A DNA stretch of 49,455 bases from Pseudomonadota bacterium. GTDB taxonomy: Bacteria; Pseudomonadota; Alphaproteobacteria; SHVZ01. The notes under the pieces were generated by a model. That model saw nothing but the letters and a program-made list of their open reading frames with translations, searched no databases and was not told where the DNA came from. Of the stretch, positions 15,457 to 29,101 are shown in pieces; the stretch's first letter is position 1; every line of letters starts with the position of its first letter. A program made the translations under genes and the position numbers. The stretch is taken from the NCBI GenBank assembly GCA_016195085.1, contig JACQAG010000046.1, positions 1 through 49,455 of the forward strand. Reading direction: 5' to 3'.

Positions 15457-17096
15457 CCCGGATTTCTCACACTGTTGAGGTGCATCGGGGCGCGGACTCT
15501 GAGAATGTCATTGTGCAGCAATGAGTTTCTCTGGTCCAAGGAGATGCCCCGATGCAGACAGAGTGTAGCGCGGATCTGTTTGGGTTTGCACCGGTTGCAG
15601 GCCGGGCGGTGGTGGTGGGATTTGACGGCGGCACGATCACGTCTGATGGCGGGGCGCTGCTGCTGGGAGCGAGCGACCGGGCGATCGGTCTGATCGAGCG
15701 GTTTGCCGGGTGCTTTAGCGATGCTCGGCGTCAGGACCTGATCGAGCATGAGGTTGCGACGCTGGTTCGCCAGCGGGTTCTCGGGATCGCGCTGGGCTAC
15801 GAAGATCTGAATGATCATGACGAGCTGCGCCACGATCCGGTGATGGCGCTGCTGGCAGGCAAGCTTTCGGCGCGCCGGCAGGGCTGCGCGCCGGTGGCGG
15901 GCAAGAGCACGCTCAATCGGCTCGAGCTGAGCCGGCCGGAGCCGTCGCGCTACCACAAGATCAGCCACGACGGAGCGGCGATCGAGCGGCTGTTCGTCGA
16001 GCTGTTCGTGGAGGCGCACCGGCAGGCGCCGGCTGAGATCATCATCGATCTGGACGCCACGGACGACCCGATCCACGGCCATCAAGAGGGCCGCTTCTTC
16101 CATGGCTACTACGACGGCTACTGCTATCTGCCGCTCTATGCGTTCTGCGGTCAGCATCTGCTGGCGGCCAAGCTGCGCCGCTCGAACATCGACGCCTCGG
16201 CCGGGGCGCAGGAGGAGGTGGCCCGGATCACCCAGCAGATCCGCGAGCGCTGGCCCGAGGTGCGCATCGTGCTGCGCGCCGACAGCGGCTTTGCCCGCGA
16301 GGCGCTGATGGCCTGGTGCGAGGCGAACGGCGTCGATTACCTGTTCGGCCTGGCCCGCAACGAGCGGCTGGTGGCCGAGATCGAGGCCGAGCTCGAGGAC
16401 GCCGCCGCGGAAAGCCGGGAGACCGCCAAGCCGGCGCGCCGGTTCAAGGACTTCCTGTGGGCGACCCGCGATAGCTGGAGCCGCCGGCGCCGGGTCGTGG
16501 CCAAGGCCGAATGCACCCAGGGGGAAGCCAACCCCCGCTTCGTCGTCACCTCGCTCGCCCCCGCCGCAGCCGAGGCCCGGCATCTCTACGAGGACATCTA
16601 CTGCGCCCGTGGCGAGATGGAGAACCGCATCAAGGAATGCCAGGGCGATCTCTTCGCAGACCGCACCTCGGCCGCCTCCATGCGCGCCAACCAGCTCCGC
16701 CTCTGGTTCGCCTCCATGGCCTATGTGCTGCTTTCCGCCCTCCGCCGCATCGCCCTCGCAAACACCCAGTTCGCCAGGGCCACCTGCGCCACCATCCGCC
16801 TCAAGCTCCTGAAGATCGGCGCCCTGGTGCGAACCAGCGTCCGCCGCGTCAAGCTCGCCATGGCTTCCGGACACCCCTATCAGCAGGAGTTCCGCGAGGC
16901 CTATCGGGCGCTCGCCGCAATCTGACGAACCAGACAGCGCACAGTCCACATCGATCCTCAGCCACGATCGCCGCAGGCGACGCCGATCAGACTGTCCGAG
17001 AAATCACCTAAAACCGCGAAAAGCCTACCTGCCTCGCCTCAGAGCCACGGGATCCCTCGCACGCCATACTCTCCATGCCAGTGTGAGAAATCCGGG
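15457..17096. mobile_element. IS1380-family insertion sequence, complete
   Basis: The element is about 1640 bp. Its ends are perfect inverted repeats of at least 18 bp (CCCGGATTTCTCACACTG) at 15457-15474 and 17079-17096. Both ends are flanked by CTAG (15453-15456 and 17097-17100), which fits a 4-bp target duplication. CTAG is its own complement, so the visible symmetry extends to 22 bp. One intact transposase gene fills most of it. It lies between the DUF1499 gene and the accessory island. Confidence 0.92.
15552..16925 (+). CDS. IS1380-family transposase
   Basis: This is a 457-residue DDE transposase. It has the family's N-terminal GFDGGTITSDGGALLLGASD, then the segments IIIDLDATDDPIHGHQEG (first Asp), VRIVLRADSGFAREALMAW (second Asp) and the late YCARGEMENRIKECQ holding the catalytic Glu. 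No frameshift or stop interrupts it, so the element could still be mobile. It starts about 95 bp inside the left inverted repeat. Confidence 0.95.
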   Translation: MQTECSADLFGFAPVAGRAVVVGFDGGTITSDGGALLLGASDRAIGLIERFAGCFSDARRQDLIEHEVATLVRQRVLGIALGYEDLNDHDELRHDPVMALLAGKLSARRQGCAPVAGKSTLNRLELSRPEPSRYHKISHDGAAIERLFVELFVEAHRQAPAEIIIDLDATDDPIHGHQEGRFFHGYYDGYCYLPLYAFCGQHLLAAKLRRSNIDASAGAQEEVARITQQIRERWPEVRIVLRADSGFAREALMAWCEANGVDYLFGLARNERLVAEIEAELEDAAAESRETAKPARRFKDFLWATRDSWSRRRRVVAKAECTQGEANPRFVVTSLAPAAAEARHLYEDIYCARGEMENRIKECQGDLFADRTSAASMRANQLRLWFASMAYVLLSALRRIALANTQFARATCATIRLKLLKIGALVRTSVRRVKLAMASGHPYQQEFREAYRALAAI

Positions 17097-17138
17097 CTAG
17101 GGTTCGGGCGAATGGGACGGGCAAATATGAAAGCGGCT

Positions 17139-17498
17139 TCAAGATCCGCCATGTCGCGGCCTCACGTCCTGCTTATCGCGCTCATGCAGCTCATGGAAAT
17201 TTGAAATGCGCACATCTTGTCCGGGAAATCGTGCAACGACCTCGAGTTGACCGCCCATCGCTTCAACGAAGCGGCGGATGGTGCTCAGGTACATATCCGT
17301 GCGCTTCTCGAGCTTGGCAACGGCCGCCTGGCCGACCTGGAGGGTCTGCCCCAGCTCTTCTTGTGAAAGTTTGAGCGCGCGTCGGATCTGGGCGAGATCC
17401 ATGTCTCGGCGAAGGTCGGCGGCCTGTGCGGCTGCTTTTGCTTGCGCCCGAGGCGACATCTTGGCTCTGAGCGCCGCGAAGGAATGTCTACCGCTCAT
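17139..17498 (-). CDS. higA: XRE-family antitoxin (HigA-like)
   Basis: This 119-residue protein has a helix-turn-helix at about residues 35-70 (IRRALKLSQEELGQTLQVGQ, then AAVAKLEKRTDMYLSTIRRF), as in XRE-type antitoxins. Its ATG overlaps the end of the toxin gene by 11 bp, with AAGGAG inside the toxin coding sequence, so the two are translationally coupled. It should neutralise the toxin and repress the shared promoter. The toxin-first order is that of higBA-type modules. Confidence 0.85.
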   Translation of the reverse strand: MSGRHSFAALRAKMSPRAQAKAAAQAADLRRDMDLAQIRRALKLSQEELGQTLQVGQAAVAKLEKRTDMYLSTIRRFVEAMGGQLEVVARFPGQDVRISNFHELHERDKQDVRPRHGGS

Positions 17499-17853
17499 CG
17501 GTGCTCTCCTTTTTCAACTCTTCAAGGTGCACGTCGTACAGCTTGTCGGCGATCGGCACGTATCGTTCGTAGAACCGATCATCGCCGGTCTTGTCCCCGC
17601 CAATCAGCAATATGGCAGCCCGCTCTGGATTGAATGCGTAGAAGATGCGGAGCGGTTTACCGCCGCTCTGCACGCGAAGCTCGCGCATGTGCCCGTGCTT
17701 GGACCCTTCGACGCCGCTCGAATAGGGAAACGGCAACAATGGTCCGCGCCGTTCCAGTTCCCCGACATGATTCGAAATGGCTGCTTGCTCGTCCTCGGTC
17801 AGGGTCGCCCACCACTCCCCGAATTCGTCGGTGTACTCGACGACCCATGCCAT
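17488..17853 (-). CDS. higB: RelE/HigB-type (Gp49-like) toxin
   Basis: This 121-residue protein has the fold and motifs of the RelE/ParE superfamily, phage-derived Gp49-like branch. It begins with VVEYTDEFGEWWATLTEDEQ and continues with helix LERRGPLLPFPYSSGVEGSK and the late strand KPLRIFYAFNPERAAILLIG that precedes GGDKTGDDRFYERYV. An mRNA-cleaving activity is likely by family. Upstream on its strand is a 279-bp gap without other genes. Confidence 0.87.
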   Translation of the reverse strand: MAWVVEYTDEFGEWWATLTEDEQAAISNHVGELERRGPLLPFPYSSGVEGSKHGHMRELRVQSGGKPLRIFYAFNPERAAILLIGGDKTGDDRFYERYVPIADKLYDVHLEELKKESTDER

Positions 17854-18132
17854 GCAGGGAATAATATAACACCGAAGGAATGTTTTTCAAGGGCGATCAA
17901 TGGGCGCCTGCGCGCCGCGCCGTAAGGATGCGGCAAGCTTGCGCAGGCGTTAGTTCATCCAGTTCGCCAATCAGGATGAACGTCGGCGCCCCTTATGATT
18001 CCGTCTCGGCCGCTGCTGGAAGGAGAGAAGGCACGACCGCTTGCACCAATTGTTCGGCCCCCTGCTCGATATAACCGCATCGCCTCCAGAATATTTTTGC
18101 GGCGCGCGCAAAGGTCGGGCACATGAGACGCC

Positions 18133-18981
18133 TCAGGTCTTCCGCAAAGCACCGTCCTCCATGTATTCGACAAATCCGATCTTCTGGCTTTCTAGCACCT
18201 GCACGTCCTCCATCGAGAGGGCGTTACCCGGTGCCACCACAAACAGTCGAGTTTTCTCATTGAGGTGCGCCCGGTAGAAATTCATCTGCCGGATCAGCTC
18301 TCCCAGGCTCGCCACCTTGGACTTCACCTCGAACGCCACGGGCACACTCTCTCCGGTCCACACCGTCCACTTATGCGACTTGATCTGCATGATCGAGCCG
18401 CAAGCAATCAGCCAGCCGTTCTCAAGCACCTCAGATCCAGGCAGCGGTGGCAAGGGATTGTTCGGCGTTTCACCGAACACCTTCCAGGCACCTTCCTCCC
18501 AGCAAAGGGCAGTTACTCGGGACGAGGTCGTCCTGATGATCCTCTTTGCGTCGTCATCGTCCCGCCATTTCCTCCATGCGTCCGGGGTCTCGAAGCTCGC
18601 TTCGAGGCTCAGCGTCGCCGGCTTGAGGTAGAGCATGAGATCCACAGCCCCGATCATTGATCCGCTGGGCCGCTTGATGAGGTACTCCCATTCTGGCGCG
18701 GTCACCGTCGGTGGAGGCCGTTCAGGAGGTGGCGCCGCAGTGCGGCTTGCGACATGCTTCGCCGCGTCGATGGTAGGCCCGGACTTGTCGAAGATCCATC
18801 CCAAGCTGATCTCGTGATGCCAGCTCCGAAAGGTGGGGCTGTACTTGCAGATGCGGGGAACGAAGTCCTCTTCTGCGCGAATGCGCCGATCGAGCCACTT
18901 CATAATTCGATCGTGCGTAGATTCCTTCAGATCGGGGTCGTTGAAGAGACGACCTTGATAGGTCTGGTTGATCTTTCCCAT
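18133..18981 (-). CDS. PD-(D/E)XK-like nuclease candidate
   Basis: This is a 282-residue protein of unrecognised family. The late core reads like a restriction-endonuclease fold: IGAVDLMLYL (Asp114), then after a long insert VPVAFEVKSK (Glu218-x-Lys220) and a helix with Gln232 in GELIRQMNFYR. The Asp...Glu-x-Lys...Gln arrangement is typical of PD-(D/E)XK nucleases. The N-terminal 100 residues are charged with a Pro-rich linker. The start at 18981 lies 26 bp beyond the stop of the HEPN-like gene, so the two are probably cotranscribed. Nuclease activity is inference. Confidence 0.65.
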   Translation of the reverse strand: MGKINQTYQGRLFNDPDLKESTHDRIMKWLDRRIRAEEDFVPRICKYSPTFRSWHHEISLGWIFDKSGPTIDAAKHVASRTAAPPPERPPPTVTAPEWEYLIKRPSGSMIGAVDLMLYLKPATLSLEASFETPDAWRKWRDDDDAKRIIRTTSSRVTALCWEEGAWKVFGETPNNPLPPLPGSEVLENGWLIACGSIMQIKSHKWTVWTGESVPVAFEVKSKVASLGELIRQMNFYRAHLNEKTRLFVVAPGNALSMEDVQVLESQKIGFVEYMEDGALRKT

Positions 18982-19006
18982 TCGCGCTTCCTCGTCTATG
19001 GCAGGC

Positions 19007-19906
19007 TCACGGGTGGAGATCCAGTCCATGCATTTGTCGAGTTGTCACCCGGGTGCGCGTGTACCTGCACCCGATTCCCAGGAGGTGCACGATGCAGCGG
19101 GAGACGAGCGCCTGCAGTTGGAGCAGGACGCCGCTCTTGTCGACAGCGTAGCCGAGAGGCTCATCGGCGAAGAGCGCCTCGTGCGCGAGTGGATTGCGTA
19201 ACCGGGAAAGCCGCGAGCTTGCGGATGCGCCAGGAATCTGCCGGGCCCAGATGGGTGTGGGGATGCCTAGCGTCCGGCAAAGTCTTCGGGCCCTCTCCCA
19301 GTGGGGGTCATCGCGGCGCCCGGGCAAGAGACCGGTCAACCTGGCCACGCGATAGCAGGCGTCGAGCGCCGAGTAGGTAAACGTCAGCTCCTCGTATTGG
19401 TGCTGGTACGCGTGGGCCAACTGGAGGGCGTTTATGGCACTGCGCATTAACAAGCGTTGTTCGAGCGTAGATGACAGCCAAGTTCCGTCCGCCACATCGA
19501 GACAGCGCGCAATCTCGCTGGGCGCGACGACCAAGTCGATGAGCTTGCCACGACTGACAGGCGTTCGCAGCAGGTATCCATAGCCTTCCGGGCGGGCGCA
19601 TATGCCTACCAGGAAGCCAATGACGCAGATCAGGAAATCCATGCGTTGCACGGATGAGGTGCGTCGATGACTCAGTATGTGGGTGGTTGGTAGTTCAAAC
19701 CGCAGCGATGGACATGGCAGATCGGTCCTGGTGCCGTCGGAGCCTTGCCGAGATTGGAGCGGGGGATAGAACCAGCCATCGTGGACCCATTGGCTGGAGA
19801 GAACATGATCGACGGTTGCCTGGAAATTGGGGCGTAGTCCGACGTCGATGAATCTGGATTCAAAATGGATGGGATCGGGCAGGAAGCCGAAGGCTCTGGC
19901 CATCAT
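19007..19906 (-). CDS. HEPN-like domain protein
   Basis: This is a 299-residue protein of unrecognised family. The second half is helical. It has a long helix pair around residues 155-192 (AINALQLAHAYQHQYEEL, then SALDACYRVARL) and the motif RNPLAHE with Arg237 and His242. That Arg-x4-His spacing with a polar residue after Arg is the RNase motif of HEPN domains, and the following helix is amphipathic, as expected. The first 100 residues contain a hydrophobic stretch FLICVIGFLVGI. A HEPN toxin or effector role is inferred from the motif only. The start is uncertain because no strong ribosome-binding site is seen. Confidence 0.6.
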   Translation of the reverse strand: MMARAFGFLPDPIHFESRFIDVGLRPNFQATVDHVLSSQWVHDGWFYPPLQSRQGSDGTRTDLPCPSLRFELPTTHILSHRRTSSVQRMDFLICVIGFLVGICARPEGYGYLLRTPVSRGKLIDLVVAPSEIARCLDVADGTWLSSTLEQRLLMRSAINALQLAHAYQHQYEELTFTYSALDACYRVARLTGLLPGRRDDPHWERARRLCRTLGIPTPIWARQIPGASASSRLSRLRNPLAHEALFADEPLGYAVDKSGVLLQLQALVSRCIVHLLGIGCRYTRTRVTTRQMHGLDLHP

Positions 19907-19978
19907 GCTGTCATTTCAATCCTTCAAGCTCACACACGGAGGCCGCCATTGTTAGGCGCATTTCAGCCCCCTACCGCT

Positions 19979-20242
19979 CTACATGTCCGATTCAAAATCT
20001 GCTTTCTTGAGCCATATGACATCCCCGTCGAGCTCGTTACTCGCAAGCTTTCGCTCCGCAAGGGCCTGTATCCGACCCAAACCAGCGCGCGGGTCTCCGC
20101 CGAAATTGTCTTGGATTGCTTCCAGGGAGACAAACACCTTTTGAGGTGTTCCATCCGGCTTTCTCGCTTGGTAGCTATAACCTATCGCGTCCAGCAGAGG
20201 CGCGTATTGGCCAGTAAATTTCAATATTTCTGGTCTCCGCAT
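19979..20242 (-). CDS. Small protein resembling DUF1488
   Basis: This is an 87-residue protein. The stretch VFVSLEAIQDNFG followed by LGRIQALAERKLASNE resembles DUF1488 proteins, which have a short beta part, a S-x-EAL-D-F motif and a helical end. The match is from memory and partial. There is no clear ribosome-binding site before the ATG. It lies between the HEPN-like and DUF6650-like genes in the island with short gaps on both sides. Confidence 0.45.
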   Translation of the reverse strand: MRRPEILKFTGQYAPLLDAIGYSYQARKPDGTPQKVFVSLEAIQDNFGGDPRAGLGRIQALAERKLASNELDGDVIWLKKADFESDM

Positions 20243-20294
20243 TGGATGAATTGCGAATGGTCGGATGGACTCGCTCTAATCCCTGAATCGTCAT

Positions 20295-20810
20295 TCACGG
20301 TGACGAGTCGCCGTCCGGCAGAACCGCGGCTAGGTCCCCTTCGACGTCGATGTCGTAGTGCGCAGCAAGCAACGCCACCTGCTGGCCTACTACCGCTCGG
20401 AACCCGCCAAGGGCCATGAAAAATCCTCCGGAATGATCCGGCCCGTACCGTCGAGTACCCAGACTGTGGAACTGCACATTTACATCGTCATGGTACCGCC
20501 TGGCTGCCCCGCGAATTAGGCGGAGAGGGACCACAGCGAAAGCGTTCTCGCTTAGCTCACTCAGCGTCTTGGTGCACATCTCACGGATTTGATGGACTGA
20601 GTGTTCGACTTCGCTCTCCACCTCAAGGCTTTCGGGGTTGTAGAGCACGCGTCGATCCTCAAGGAACAGAATGAACCGCCGGATAACGTCCCGCTCAGAC
20701 GGACCTGCTTCCGCCCACTGCAAACCCCCGAACGGCGTACTGATGCCGGTGATCCGCCTCGCGGCGCTTGCGGTCACCTTGGCAGCTCGCCGCATTCGAC
20801 CGCGCCTCAT
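20295..20810 (-). CDS. DUF6650-like protein
   Basis: This is a 171-residue protein. Its N-terminal basic segment is followed by ITGISTPFGGLQW and an IRRFILFLEDRRVLYNPES block, which are the hallmarks of the DUF6650 family as I recall it. A helix with SVHQIREMCTKTLSEL follows, and a C-terminal part ends in a short acidic tail. GGAGGG lies 5 nt upstream of the ATG, the best ribosome-binding site in the island. The family has no known function. It lies 28 bp downstream of the cyclase-like gene. Confidence 0.65.
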   Translation of the reverse strand: MRRGRMRRAAKVTASAARRITGISTPFGGLQWAEAGPSERDVIRRFILFLEDRRVLYNPESLEVESEVEHSVHQIREMCTKTLSELSENAFAVVPLRLIRGAARRYHDDVNVQFHSLGTRRYGPDHSGGFFMALGGFRAVVGQQVALLAAHYDIDVEGDLAAVLPDGDSSP

Positions 20811-20837
20811 GGCGCCCTCCCGTATCCGAAGGCCTTC

Positions 20838-21578
20838 CTATTTTAGGGCGATCGGCGCAACGCCTACACCATGCTGCACAATCGCGCGATCAAAAGCCCT
20901 GGCAAGCCATTCCCATTTTTTACGAGGGCCTTCAGCAGGCAGGTCATTCACCCGCCTGACAATCCATGCTCGGTACTGCCGGAACGCATCCTCGATCCGT
21001 CCGTGCACCTCTGTCCCTATGATGTATTCCGGGAACAGAGTGTCGGCGATGAGTGCGTCACCGTCCATTCTGCACATTGGCGAATTCGCAAGTGTCGACG
21101 CCTGCCAATGCTGCCGTGCTGCTTCGGTAAGCATGATGCGCGGACCACCAGATTTCTTCTCCGCCTCAACGGCACAGATATATCCGGTCCCGAAGACATT
21201 GCCGTCATCGTGCCAGACTGGCCCTACCGCGATACCTCCGCGCAACAGGTAACCCATCTCCAGAAGCTTGTGCGCGATCTGTATGCTCTTTGCGACCACA
21301 ATCCCGAGTCCGTCAAAATGCCCGTGCTGGAGAGGCACAGACAGAATGATGCTATCGGAGACAAAAATATATCTGGGCTTCACTGGCTCCGGGACAGAGC
21401 CCGCCACGCGATCGTTGTCCCATCGTACATGGGCATCGATCGCCGTCCTCAATCCGAAGAGACTAAGTAACGTGGCTGGCTGCTGCTCGGCTTCGCGTAT
21501 CAGCTCTTTGAAACCGAGAATGTCCAGAAATGCAATAGCCCTCTGTTGAAATACCCACGTGGTCCGTGTTGCTTTCAT
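20838..21578 (-). CDS. Nucleotide-cyclase-like protein
   Basis: This 246-residue protein has the layout of a class III nucleotidyl cyclase homology domain, in divergent form. AIAFLDILGF carries Asp19 where cyclases have the first metal Asp. IFVSDSIILSV carries Asp75 at the second metal position. LLRGGIAVGP and NVFGTGYICAVEAEK (with Glu138) mimic the late cyclase motifs. It has no membrane helix or extra sensory domain. The ATG at 21578 is preceded by GGGGAA; a longer start at 21617 is possible. It is the first gene of the minus-strand island cluster. Cyclase activity and product are not established. Confidence 0.65.
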   Translation of the reverse strand: MKATRTTWVFQQRAIAFLDILGFKELIREAEQQPATLLSLFGLRTAIDAHVRWDNDRVAGSVPEPVKPRYIFVSDSIILSVPLQHGHFDGLGIVVAKSIQIAHKLLEMGYLLRGGIAVGPVWHDDGNVFGTGYICAVEAEKKSGGPRIMLTEAARQHWQASTLANSPMCRMDGDALIADTLFPEYIIGTEVHGRIEDAFRQYRAWIVRRVNDLPAEGPRKKWEWLARAFDRAIVQHGVGVAPIALK

Positions 21579-21860
21579 TGGCGTTCCCCAATGAGACGTT
21601 CCAGTCCCATAAGCCAAAGACCCCGCCCCATAAGTTCCTCAACCGCAAAGTGCATCTAATATTTATGGTTGTCCATGCCGTTTGTCGTGCAACGTTATTA
21701 AGCCATCGTTCGAAGGCGCCACAAAAGGGGCCGCCACCGGACTACGCCTTCGGATTTGGGAGAGAGCTATGAGCGAGTGGGGGGAGATCGCGGTTCACAT
21801 ACGCCCCGATGAGCGCGAAAATCCGGGGAATCCCGGTCGAGGCGATCAACAGGCGACGCG

Positions 21861-22148
21861 ATGCAATCGTTAAACACCAGAGAACGAAAAGCTGTGGGCT
21901 GGGTCGCAGTAGCGATTATGACGTTTCTCGGATTCGAGTGGTGGGCTGCCGATCAAAACAAGGAAAGGATTCGAGAGACGCTGCACCGCGTGTGTGAAGC
22001 CGCGCGCCGCCAGAACGAGACTTTGCTCGGGCACACCGGCAATCTCGCCGATTTTGACCTGAAATTGTCTGACGCGGGGAAAATCGCGCCCGTTCTGCAG
22101 CCAATTTTCTCCGAAGGATGCGGGAGTCCGATTCCCACGGAAGATTAA
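21861..22148 (+). CDS. Hypothetical small membrane protein
   Basis: I do not recognise this 95-residue protein. It has one N-terminal hydrophobic helix (AVGWVAVAIMTFLGFEWWAA) followed by a charged helical region, two Cys and a short acidic end. It is the only plus-strand gene in the island, divergent from the cyclase-like gene. The 283-bp gap upstream of it is AT-richer and presumably carries both promoters. Confidence 0.5.
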   Translation: MQSLNTRERKAVGWVAVAIMTFLGFEWWAADQNKERIRETLHRVCEAARRQNETLLGHTGNLADFDLKLSDAGKIAPVLQPIFSEGCGSPIPTED

Positions 22149-22195
22149 CCGGGTCTGTCACCCTGAGGAAGGGCGCAGATTCTACCGGCGCCTGC

Positions 22196-22231
22196 TAGCT
22201 ATGTGCTTGCTAGTAGCTATGTGCTTGCTAG
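22196..22231. repeat. 18-bp tandem duplication
   Basis: TAGCTATGTGCTTGCTAG occurs twice in direct, immediate succession (22196-22213 and 22214-22231). It lies between the small membrane protein and tRNA-Arg, near the inferred island boundary. Confidence 0.9.
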
Positions 22232-22277
22232 GCGTTAATGCGCCGCCCGCGGATATTTTATAATTTATCGAATTTAC

Positions 22278-22354
22278 TGGCGGACCCGACACGATTCGAA
22301 CGTGCGACCTTTGCCTTCGGAGGGCAACGCTCTATCCAGCTGAGCTACGGGTCC
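22278..22354 (-). tRNA. tRNA-Arg (anticodon CCG)
   Basis: The minus strand folds as a full cloverleaf. The 5' acceptor strand GGACCCG pairs with CGGGTCC, the D arm carries AGCTCAGCTGGATAGAGC, and the anticodon stem TTGCC/GGCAA encloses the loop CTCCGAA with CCG at positions 34-36. The T arm has GTTCGAATC, and CCA is encoded at the 3' end. It decodes CGG. Its 3' end faces the accessory island to the left. Confidence 0.95.
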
Positions 22355-22494
22355 AGCCGCGCCTCATAACTACTGCATAGGCCGGCGGCGCGCAACGCCG
22401 GGCCGGCTGGGGTCTCGGCTGAGCGGTGGGACAAGGGCGTTGCCACAAGTCATTGCGGCACCCCATACTGAGTGAGCAACTTGAGGCATACGCC

Positions 22495-22737
22495 GTGAAC
22501 AAGCTGCTTGAACGCATCACCATCGACCCGGAAGTGTGCGGCGGGAAGCCCTGCGTCAAAGGCACCCGCATCTGGGTATCGCTTATTCTCGACCTCCTGG
22601 CCGACGGCACGGTGGAAGCCGAACTTTTGGCGGAGTATCCGCAGCTCACCCATGACGACCTCTTGGCTGCGATCGCCTACGGTGCCGAGGCTTCGCGTGA
22701 GCGCGTCATTCCGGTGCCGCTCGGCCGGGTGGCGTGA
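22495..22737 (+). CDS. DUF433 antitoxin
   Basis: This 80-residue protein is a typical DUF433 member: ITIDPEVCGGKPCVKGTRIW, then ILDLLADGTVEAELLAEYPQ and the LTHDDLLAAIAYGAE helix. It starts at GTG, with GAGG about 9 nt upstream. Its stop overlaps the start of the DUF5615 gene by 4 bp. DUF433 proteins are commonly coupled to DUF5615 PIN-like toxins; the antitoxin assignment rests on this pairing. Confidence 0.88.
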   Translation: MNKLLERITIDPEVCGGKPCVKGTRIWVSLILDLLADGTVEAELLAEYPQLTHDDLLAAIAYGAEASRERVIPVPLGRVA

Positions 22738-23105
22738 AGCTCAAGCTCGATGAGAATATCGGCCGCCGTGGCTTGGAACTACTGATCACCGCCGGTCATG
22801 ATGTGGCGACCGTGCGGCATCAAGGCCTTCAGGGTGTCAGCGACAAGACATTATTCGAAGTTTGCGCAGGCGAGGGGCGGGCGCTGGTCACGCTGGACCA
22901 CGATTTTGGCCAGGTGCTGCGATTTCCGCCGGCGAAGAGCGCTGGCGTGGCGATCCTCGAGCTAGGTCCGCGCGTCACCACCGAGGCGCTTCTCGATCGG
23001 CTGCGCAGTTTGCTGGCGATCTTGGAGACCCGTCCGCTTGCTGGCGCTTTGTGGATCATCGAACCCGGCCGGATACGCATACATCTCGGCCACGACGAAG
23101 ACTGA
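22734..23105 (+). CDS. DUF5615 PIN-like toxin
   Basis: This 123-residue protein has the PIN-like DUF5615 fold. LKLDENIGRRG carries the first acidic residue, DVATVRHQGLQGVSD follows, and ALVTLDHDFGQVLRFPP carries the second acidic cluster. The start GTG overlaps the DUF433 stop by 4 bp. It is probably a ribonuclease toxin by family; activity is not shown here. Confidence 0.88.
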   Translation: MKLKLDENIGRRGLELLITAGHDVATVRHQGLQGVSDKTLFEVCAGEGRALVTLDHDFGQVLRFPPAKSAGVAILELGPRVTTEALLDRLRSLLAILETRPLAGALWIIEPGRIRIHLGHDED

Positions 23106-23178: not shown

Positions 23179-24321
23179 TTAGCCCCGGCATAGGCCTGCC
23201 GCGCGCAACGCCGGGCCAGCGCCGGCCGCATGCGCATTGGCGATCTCCGTCGCCGACGGCAGCGGCGTTGCGTGATCGGCCATCCAGGCCAGCAAATCCT
23301 CGGCGACGCCGCGGCCGGCAAGGTCGCGGGTGATCATGTGATGGCCCTCGGGATAGAAGGCCACGCGCCAGTCGCCCGCGGGCGCATCCGGGAGAGTCCG
23401 GATCACGCTGCAGACGGCGCGCCTGGGGATGATCTGGTCGCGGCCGCCATAGATGATGAGCGCCGGGCCCTGGAGATGCGGGGCCGCCGCCTGCGCTTGC
23501 CCCATGAGCTCGACCAGGCCGTAGACGGCATCGGCGCGGGTCCTGCGGATGACCAAGGAATCGCCGGAGTAGCGCCGGAGCATGGTGATGTTGTCCGAGG
23601 GCTGAATGCCGAGCTCGGCATAGAGCAGGAACCAGGGAAGCGTGTTGGCCATGAGCCAGGCCGCCCCGATCGGCACCGCACCCAAGGCGGGCCCGCCCCA
23701 GACCGCAGGCGCGATCAGCACGATGCCGTCGGGCTTGGTCATGGCAGCGGCGTTCGGGGGGTCGATCGAGGCTTGAGCCAGGTCCGCCAGCACCACGGCT
23801 CCGCTCATGCTCTCGCCGATGAGAGTGAGCGGCAGCTCGGGATGGCGCTGGCGCACCAGGCGCAAGGCCGCGTTGAGGTCGGCGATCAGCGCCTCGCTGC
23901 CGGGCCACAGCCCGTGCCCCGGCGCCGCGCCGAAGCCTCGCTGGTCATAGGCATAGACGGTGACGCCGCGCTCGGACATCTCGCCCGCGAGCTCGGCGAA
24001 GGCGCGGCGATAATCGTTCATGCCATGCAGCGCCAGCGCCACCGCCCAGCTCTTGCCGGCCGGGCGCCAGACGTCCATGGGCAGCGCGAGGCCGTCCTCG
24101 GTGAGGAAATGGTCGCTCGCCAGTGCCGCCGCCGCAGCCCCCGGTCCCGGCTCCGTCCGCTGCGGCGCGCAAGCCGCGAGCGCGACGAGCGCTCCAGCTC
24201 CGAGAAGATTCACCACGGAGGCACGGAGTGCACGGAGAAGCGGAAGATATCGCGCGCGCAGCGCGCAAGTTTCCCTTCCTTTTTTGCTCTTCTCCGTGTT
24301 CTCCGTGCCTCCGTGGTGCAT
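23179..24321 (-). CDS. Lipoprotein alpha/beta hydrolase (lysophospholipase-like)
   Basis: This hydrolase of up to 380 residues has the monoglyceride-lipase/lysophospholipase layout. The nucleophile elbow is LIGESMSGAVV, the Asp lies in IIYGGRDQIIP and the His in YPEGHHMITRD. A lipobox-like LVALAACAP follows a hydrophobic stretch, so the mature protein is probably an outer- or inner-membrane lipoprotein. Its first 40 residues are encoded by a dispersed palindromic repeat (24209-24319); the native start seems to have been replaced by this repeat, and the true start is uncertain. If translation begins in the repeat, its basic residues serve as the n-region. Confidence 0.82.
   Translation of the reverse strand: MHHGGTENTEKSKKGRETCALRARYLPLLRALRASVVNLLGAGALVALAACAPQRTEPGPGAAAAALASDHFLTEDGLALPMDVWRPAGKSWAVALALHGMNDYRRAFAELAGEMSERGVTVYAYDQRGFGAAPGHGLWPGSEALIADLNAALRLVRQRHPELPLTLIGESMSGAVVLADLAQASIDPPNAAAMTKPDGIVLIAPAVWGGPALGAVPIGAAWLMANTLPWFLLYAELGIQPSDNITMLRRYSGDSLVIRRTRADAVYGLVELMGQAQAAAPHLQGPALIIYGGRDQIIPRRAVCSVIRTLPDAPAGDWRVAFYPEGHHMITRDLAGRGVAEDLLAWMADHATPLPSATEIANAHAAGAGPALRAAGLCRG
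24209..24319. repeat. Dispersed palindromic repeat, family D, copy 1
   Basis: About 111 bp with outer arms TTCACCACGGAGGCACGGAG and its near complement ending CTCCGTGCCTCCGTGGTG. A GC-alternating core (CGCGCGCGCAGCGCGC) is in the middle. A related unit is at 28903-29005. It overlaps the 5' end of the lipoprotein hydrolase gene. Confidence 0.85.
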
Positions 24322-24336
24322 CTCTTCTTCTTAAAC

Positions 24337-28902: not shown

Positions 28903-29005
28903 TTCACCACAGAGACACGGAGGACACGGAGTCGGAATTCGATTTTATGCGCGCTTCGCGCGCCAGATCCCTCTCTTCTCCGTGCTCTACTGTCTCCGTG
29001 GTGAA
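28903..29005. repeat. Dispersed palindromic repeat, family D, copy 2
   Basis: The outer arms TTCACCACAGAGACACGGAG and a near complement ending TGTCTCCGTGGTGAA flank a GCGCGCTTCGCGCGC core. It matches copy 1 at 24209-24319 in arm sequence and layout. Confidence 0.85.
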
Positions 29006-29101
29006 TTCTCGTCCTTGCGATCTCGGTAATAGTCGGGTGCGCGCCGCGAATTAACGGCGTCGACTCCGTTGCTCCGTTCCCTAGGAACAATGCGCGTTAG
29101 A

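Follow-up and report, generated by a model that had tools for sequence, protein, structure and literature searches.

A free-standing protein with a predicted class III nucleotidyl cyclase fold and conserved metal aspartates represents an unnamed family of prophages, plasmids and defence islands

The window analyzed here is a whole stretch of 49,455 nucleotides, contig JACQAG010000046.1 of a Pseudomonadota bacterium, and the gene of interest lies on its minus strand with an ATG start codon at position 21578 and the sequence GGGGA a few bases 5' of it. This gene is the first in a minus-strand run that continues with genes for a DUF6650 protein, an 87-aa ORF, a 299-aa protein, a 298-aa protein, a toxin and an antitoxin. 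Counting from the cyclase-like gene, the first genes of the run are separated by 27, 52 and 72 bp, followed by a 23-bp overlap. The features of the gene and of the surrounding DNA are listed below.

20838..21578, minus strand: CDS for a 246-aa free-standing protein with a predicted class III cyclase fold, hereafter the window protein (translation, PHROG 23933 profile, structure)
21510..21530, minus strand: FLDILGF, residues 17-23, strand 1, with the putative first metal Asp, D19 (codon 21522-21524; conservation and class III alignment)
21339..21362, minus strand: VSDSIILS, residues 73-80, strand 2/3 hairpin, with the putative second metal Asp, D75 (codon 21354-21356; conservation and class III alignment)
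21219..21248, minus strand: LLRGGIAVGP, residues 111-120, strand 4, the counterpart of class III RIGxNTG (conservation and alignment)
21159..21194, minus strand: FGTGYICAVEAE, residues 129-140, the counterpart of the class III GDxVNxAxRLE stretch, with I134 at the Asn position and E138 at the Arg position (alignment)
20916..20918, minus strand: K221, a family-specific, near-invariant Lys in a C-terminal helix beyond the conserved part of the cyclase domain (57/58)
20295..20810, minus strand: DUF6650 protein, 27 bp downstream of the cyclase-like gene and possibly co-transcribed with it (PF20355, E 5.8e-14)
19979-20242, minus strand: 87-aa ORF
19007-19906, minus strand: 299-aa HEPN-like protein with RNPLAH (phrog_5937 match)
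18133-19029, minus strand: 298-aa nuclease-like protein with an FEVKSK (EVK) motif
17488-17853, minus strand: RelE/Gp49-type toxin (profile matches)
17139-17498, minus strand: HTH antitoxin (profile matches)
15552-16925, plus strand: IS1380 transposase flanking the run (profile matches)
22426-23105, plus strand: DUF433/DUF5615 pair flanking the run (profile matches)

The island that holds this run is imported. Its GC content (55-61% over positions 17000-22500) stands against 68-69% on either side, the family-level genomes G001-G006 lack the cyclase-like gene, and the chromosomal genes to the right of the island are conserved in related genomes. The low-GC segment extends over 16950-22500, with the RelE/HTH toxin-antitoxin pair inside it and with the IS1380 transposase and the DUF433/DUF5615 pair as its boundaries. 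Elsewhere in the window, positions 24206-24323 and 28903-29011 carry a repeat some 120 bases long; the host genome contains dozens of copies, and a single place often has copies on both strands.

Searches with the window protein gave no match in Pfam, PADLOC or NCBIfam at E values up to 1. Two PHROG profiles were matched, namely PHROG 23933 (E 1.7e-21), which carries the label "unknown function", and PHROG 21097 (E 1.7e-9), also of unknown function. No sensor or other attached domain was detected with profiles from any of these four collections. All 58 aligned relatives match the PHROG 23933 profile, and each is a single-domain protein of 215-308 aa, which agrees with the initial annotation of the window protein as a stand-alone protein lacking a sensor domain. 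The family is unnamed in Pfam, NCBIfam and PADLOC, its sole label being that of PHROGs, and literature searches by name or by context returned nothing specific to it.

By tblastn and profile searches we found relatives on 17 plasmids and 32 viral contigs, in 14 of 385 genomes of the window's class, in 15 of 398 genomes of its phylum and in 8 further genomes. The distribution within class and phylum is patchy, with a prevalence of about 4% among the genomes sampled. When the single window sequence was used as the query, neither tblastn of phage records nor a scan of genome contigs gave a match. The closest relative is encoded in an Acidobacteriota MAG (L077, 49% identity), followed at 31-38% identity by proteins from Desulfobacterales, Moraxellaceae, Methyloglobulus, Dyella, Marinobacter and Thauera. 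The best matches inside the window's own class are only about 30% identical, and none of them is among the closest relatives. That the closest relatives all lie outside this class fits horizontal transfer. The motifs and their order are far beyond chance, because full-length relatives at 31-49% identity occur in other phyla and classes, because D19, G22 and D75 never vary across 58 sequences that have a mean column identity of 17%, and because class III cyclases stand out in the comparisons of both fold and profile.

For the fold comparison, an AlphaFold2 model of the window protein was built as a ligand-free monomer from an alignment of the protein with 26 relatives from viral contigs (pLDDT 92.7, pTM 0.90). 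The best 50 Foldseek matches listed from the PDB are all class III cyclases or class III-like proteins (best E 8e-6), with no GGDEF protein among them, and identity as a GGDEF protein was rejected; a diguanylate cyclase appeared as one weak match among viral models (E 0.07). The top 50 VIA-align entries are adenylate or guanylate cyclases, with the catalytic domain of a guanylate cyclase as the best (Z 17.1; 162 aa aligned at rmsd 2.7). PycC structures do not appear among the fold matches listed, an absence that carries no evidential weight. At the level of sequence, the family profile matched mycobacterial adenylate cyclases weakly (E ~0.007-0.01), and hhalign of the family against a canonical class III alignment, comprising 23 cyclases from related genomes, gave P 8.5e-6 and paired D19, D75, the strand-4 RG and the LE motif. 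The aligned core covers approximately residues 5-184, with two extra helices at 194-235. Taken together, these comparisons indicate that the window protein almost certainly has the cyclase homology domain fold of class III nucleotidyl cyclases. An unrelated fold is one of two findings that the initial annotation had named as speaking against its proposal, and AlphaFold2, Foldseek and VIA-align all point the other way.

The second such finding, loss of the metal aspartates in homologues, is likewise not what we observed. As shown in the family alignment, D19, G22 and D75 are invariant in all 58 sequences, and profile alignment places D19 at the DIxGF motif and D75 at the GD motif of class III cyclases, so that both metal-binding Asp positions of the superfamily are occupied throughout the family. 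The order FLDILGF, VSDSIILS, LLRGGIAVGP, with Asp19 and Asp75 at metal positions, had been read from the DNA earlier and is borne out by the translation and the class III alignment. In addition, R113-G114 aligns with the class III RIG motif and E140 with the glutamate of RLE. High conservation is also seen at F17 (57/58), S74 (56/58), R113 (56/58), G114 (57/58), G119 (55/58), E140 (53/58), P146 (54/58) and K221 (57/58), and to a lesser degree at H123 (42/58) and R147 (45/58).

The rest of the canonical catalytic set presents a different picture. The transition-state Asn and Arg (NxxxR) are both present in 23 of the 23 canonical cyclases, as compared with 5 of 58 (Asn) and 4 of 58 (Arg) members of the PHROG 23933 family, and the window protein has I134 and E138 in their place. 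The position of the ATP-reading Lys is I71 in the window protein, with Lys in 3 of the 58 members, and that of the ATP-specifying Asp is N127, with Asn also recurring there among the closest relatives. Neither the Lys/Asp pair that specifies ATP nor the Glu/Cys pair that specifies GTP is therefore found at I71 and N127. The alignments thus show strong selection on both predicted metal ligands together with loss of the remaining canonical catalytic residues. Judged by alignment and model, the window protein represents a distinct, unnamed, metal-retaining branch of the class III fold with an altered catalytic set. The likeness to class III cyclases noted in the initial annotation holds for the fold and the metal aspartates; ordinary cyclase catalysis is not supported, as the Asn/Arg and base-specifying residues are not conserved.

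Retention of the metal ligands with loss of the catalytic set would be expected of a re-engineered enzyme and of an NTP-binding pseudo-enzyme alike. If the domain were catalytically silent, it would act as an NTP and metal binder that serves as a nucleotide sensor or a regulatory partner, and the loss of the transition-state and base-specifying positions could mean just such a non-catalytic, nucleotide-binding relic. Proteins of this type exist, as the fold matches include PDB 6yii, which its depositors' title describes as a P. aeruginosa class III adenylyl cyclase-like ATP-binding protein; it shares the class III-like fold but is only ~14% identical to the window protein over the aligned part and is compared by fold alone. 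However, absolute conservation of both metal Asp residues in 58 diverged sequences suggests metal-dependent chemistry, and Rv1900c and DUF2652 proteins, which lack the Asn, are known or predicted to be active (PMC4886424). We consider a silent domain unlikely, though to be taken seriously, and because both metal ligands are completely conserved we lean toward an enzyme over a pseudo-enzyme.

Comparison with known systems gives a similar mixture of shared and divergent features. With class III adenylate/guanylate cyclases (PF00211) the family shares the fold, the order of motifs, both metal Asp residues and the RG and LE motifs, but it has not kept the Asn/Arg and Lys/Asp positions, and the window protein has no sensor or fused domain. 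The PF00211 model does not match the window protein and, in a Pfam-A search of all 58 members, was the only model touched, by a single member at E 0.005. The DUF2652 proteins were earlier described as uncharacterized, free-standing class III-like proteins that lack the Asn and mostly keep the Arg and a Lys-Glu or Glu-Lys pair (Ramakrishnan et al. 2016, PMC4886424). They resemble the window protein in being single-domain, cytosolic, class III-like proteins of ~250 aa with the metal Asp kept and the Asn absent, whereas the PHROG 23933 family has retained neither their residue pair nor their mostly kept Arg. Membership in DUF2652 was rejected, with none of the 58 members matching the Pfam model (Pfam-A, E up to 0.01).

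PycC, the Pycsar cyclase, is similar to the window protein in that it is free-standing, has a class III-type fold with two metal Asp residues and occurs in some defence-island settings. PycC enzymes rely on the two metal Asp (D102/D146 in EaPycC, D62/D106 in AnPycC) plus unusual base-reading residues (PMC11224242). This precedent, the retained fold and metal Asp residues, and 11 cNMP-binding domain matches in the host genome outside the window contig would be compatible with a true Pycsar-like cyclase that makes a pyrimidine (or purine) 3',5'-cNMP for a receptor encoded elsewhere in the genome. In several respects, however, the evidence runs against such an enzyme. Near the second metal Asp, EaPycC has the polar base-reading residues R142 and Q144 where the window protein has the hydrophobic I71 and V73, and the Asn/Arg positions are not conserved. 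The PADLOC Pycsar cyclase models match neither the window protein (E up to 1) nor any of its 58 relatives (E up to 0.01). A search for the cNMP-binding domain (PF00027) found none on the window contig and none on 30 plasmid or viral records with relatives, some of which may be fragments. The initial annotation had remarked that the effectors expected of Pycsar are absent, which is confirmed for the window contig, and the link that it drew to Pycsar is not upheld, as Pycsar membership is rejected for want of a PADLOC model match and of a linked cNMP-binding effector (PycTM or PycTIR). We regard a Pycsar-like cyclase as very unlikely.

Genes next to the window gene offer another candidate for its partner. 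The window gene might be the first in a local defence operon with the DUF6650 gene, the 87-aa ORF and the HEPN-like and nuclease-like genes, with its signal activating one of their products. The shared strand, the short gaps and the 23-bp overlap are consistent with this possibility, as are the presence of DUF6650 among domains newly implicated by experiment in anti-phage defence (PMC13092281) and the resemblance of RNPLAH in the 299-aa protein to the RxxxxH motif of HEPN RNases. Yet none of the closest relatives of the window protein has any of these four genes beside it. No cyclase relative turned up in the flanks fetched around DUF6650 relatives from the class, from the phylum and from plasmids, and the same holds for the fetched flanks of plasmid-borne relatives of the HEPN-like gene. 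Because DUF6650 and the HEPN-like gene occur elsewhere without an adjoining cyclase relative, the arrangement in the window is at best a recent combination, and an effector role for the two, which do not accompany the family elsewhere, is unsupported. We therefore find a local operon quite unlikely. Regarding the HEPN-like and nuclease-like genes said earlier to lie downstream, RNPLAH, the phrog_5937 match and FEVKSK agree with that description, but the 299-aa and 298-aa proteins match no named nuclease family in profile databases or the PDB, and the DUF6650 gene and the 87-aa ORF intervene. No viral relatives or PDB matches turned up for either gene. Plasmid relatives of the DUF6650 protein include one at 60% identity near an integrase and one at 41% near nucleotide-binding and SEFIR genes, and relatives of the 299-aa protein are found on Acinetobacter, Burkholderia, Bradyrhizobium and Providencia plasmids, once beside BrnT/BrnA and RelE modules.

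Across the loci compared, no partner gene is conserved family-wide. Many family loci are ordinary prophages, and others lie close to known defence genes. A HerA-SIR2 system adjoins the family gene at L090 (E 1e-303 and 1e-217), Dsr1 lies near it at L008, an Abi-family protein at L007, a GajA-like AAA ATPase with a UvrD helicase (Gabija-like) at L009, and hsd-type restriction genes on both sides of it at L093 and L049. Genes lying up to 5.5 kb from 13 family loci matched 189 PADLOC models (E up to 1e-8), as compared with 45 for 13 control stretches on the same contigs. This excess is suggestive, as it is based on 13 loci against 13, the models overlap and cross-match AAA ATPases, and L090 contributes many of the matches. 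The family is carried patchily by prophages, plasmids and defence islands.

Our best guess, held with moderate confidence, is that the window protein is a signal synthase or a sensor that uses metal and NTP and takes part in phage-host conflict. In this model a small soluble protein, consisting of one class III catalytic domain and a short C-terminal helical pair, would bind an NTP and two divalent metals at a homodimer interface. Family-specific residues, with H123, R147 and K221 as candidates, may contact the base and the phosphates. The NTP might then be used for cyclization or another alpha-phosphate transfer that yields a signal, or its binding or turnover might serve as the sensor. The protein would act in phage-host or element-element conflict on targets mostly encoded away from the gene. 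Of the separate parts, metal-NTP binding is highly probable and chemical activity on the nucleotide reasonably probable, while we would expect an ordinary 3',5'-cNMP as the product in only a minority of scenarios. A role in conflict or defence seems to us somewhat favored. The class III fold and the invariant metal ligands give an unnamed family a concrete and cheap test. An active protein would extend the small group of anti-phage systems built on cyclases by a signalling enzyme; an inactive one would be a clear example, in mobile DNA, of a class III pseudo-enzyme that has kept its metal site.

One sub-group of the family does have a recurrent neighbor. At five loci (L052:496-2297, L056:4909-6624, L060:4928-6684, L087:6822-8700 and L099:6895-8748) the gene immediately upstream of the cyclase-like one encodes a ParA-like ATPase (YNHKGGVSKTTT), its stop codon lying within 7 bp of the cyclase-like start codon, and the two genes form a candidate two-gene system. 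This partner could point to a partition-type role instead of conflict. For the family as a whole we put forward, as a speculative and rather unlikely proposal, a two-metal class III-fold enzyme that has its own catalytic and base-reading set, makes something different from the standard 3',5'-cNMPs and spreads as a single-gene cargo on prophages and in defence islands, occasionally with a dedicated ParA-like partner. At L093 and L049, as judged by eye from the starts of the sequences, the cyclase-like gene appears to be inserted in a type I restriction (hsd) operon, with the M gene on one side of it and the R or S gene on the other.
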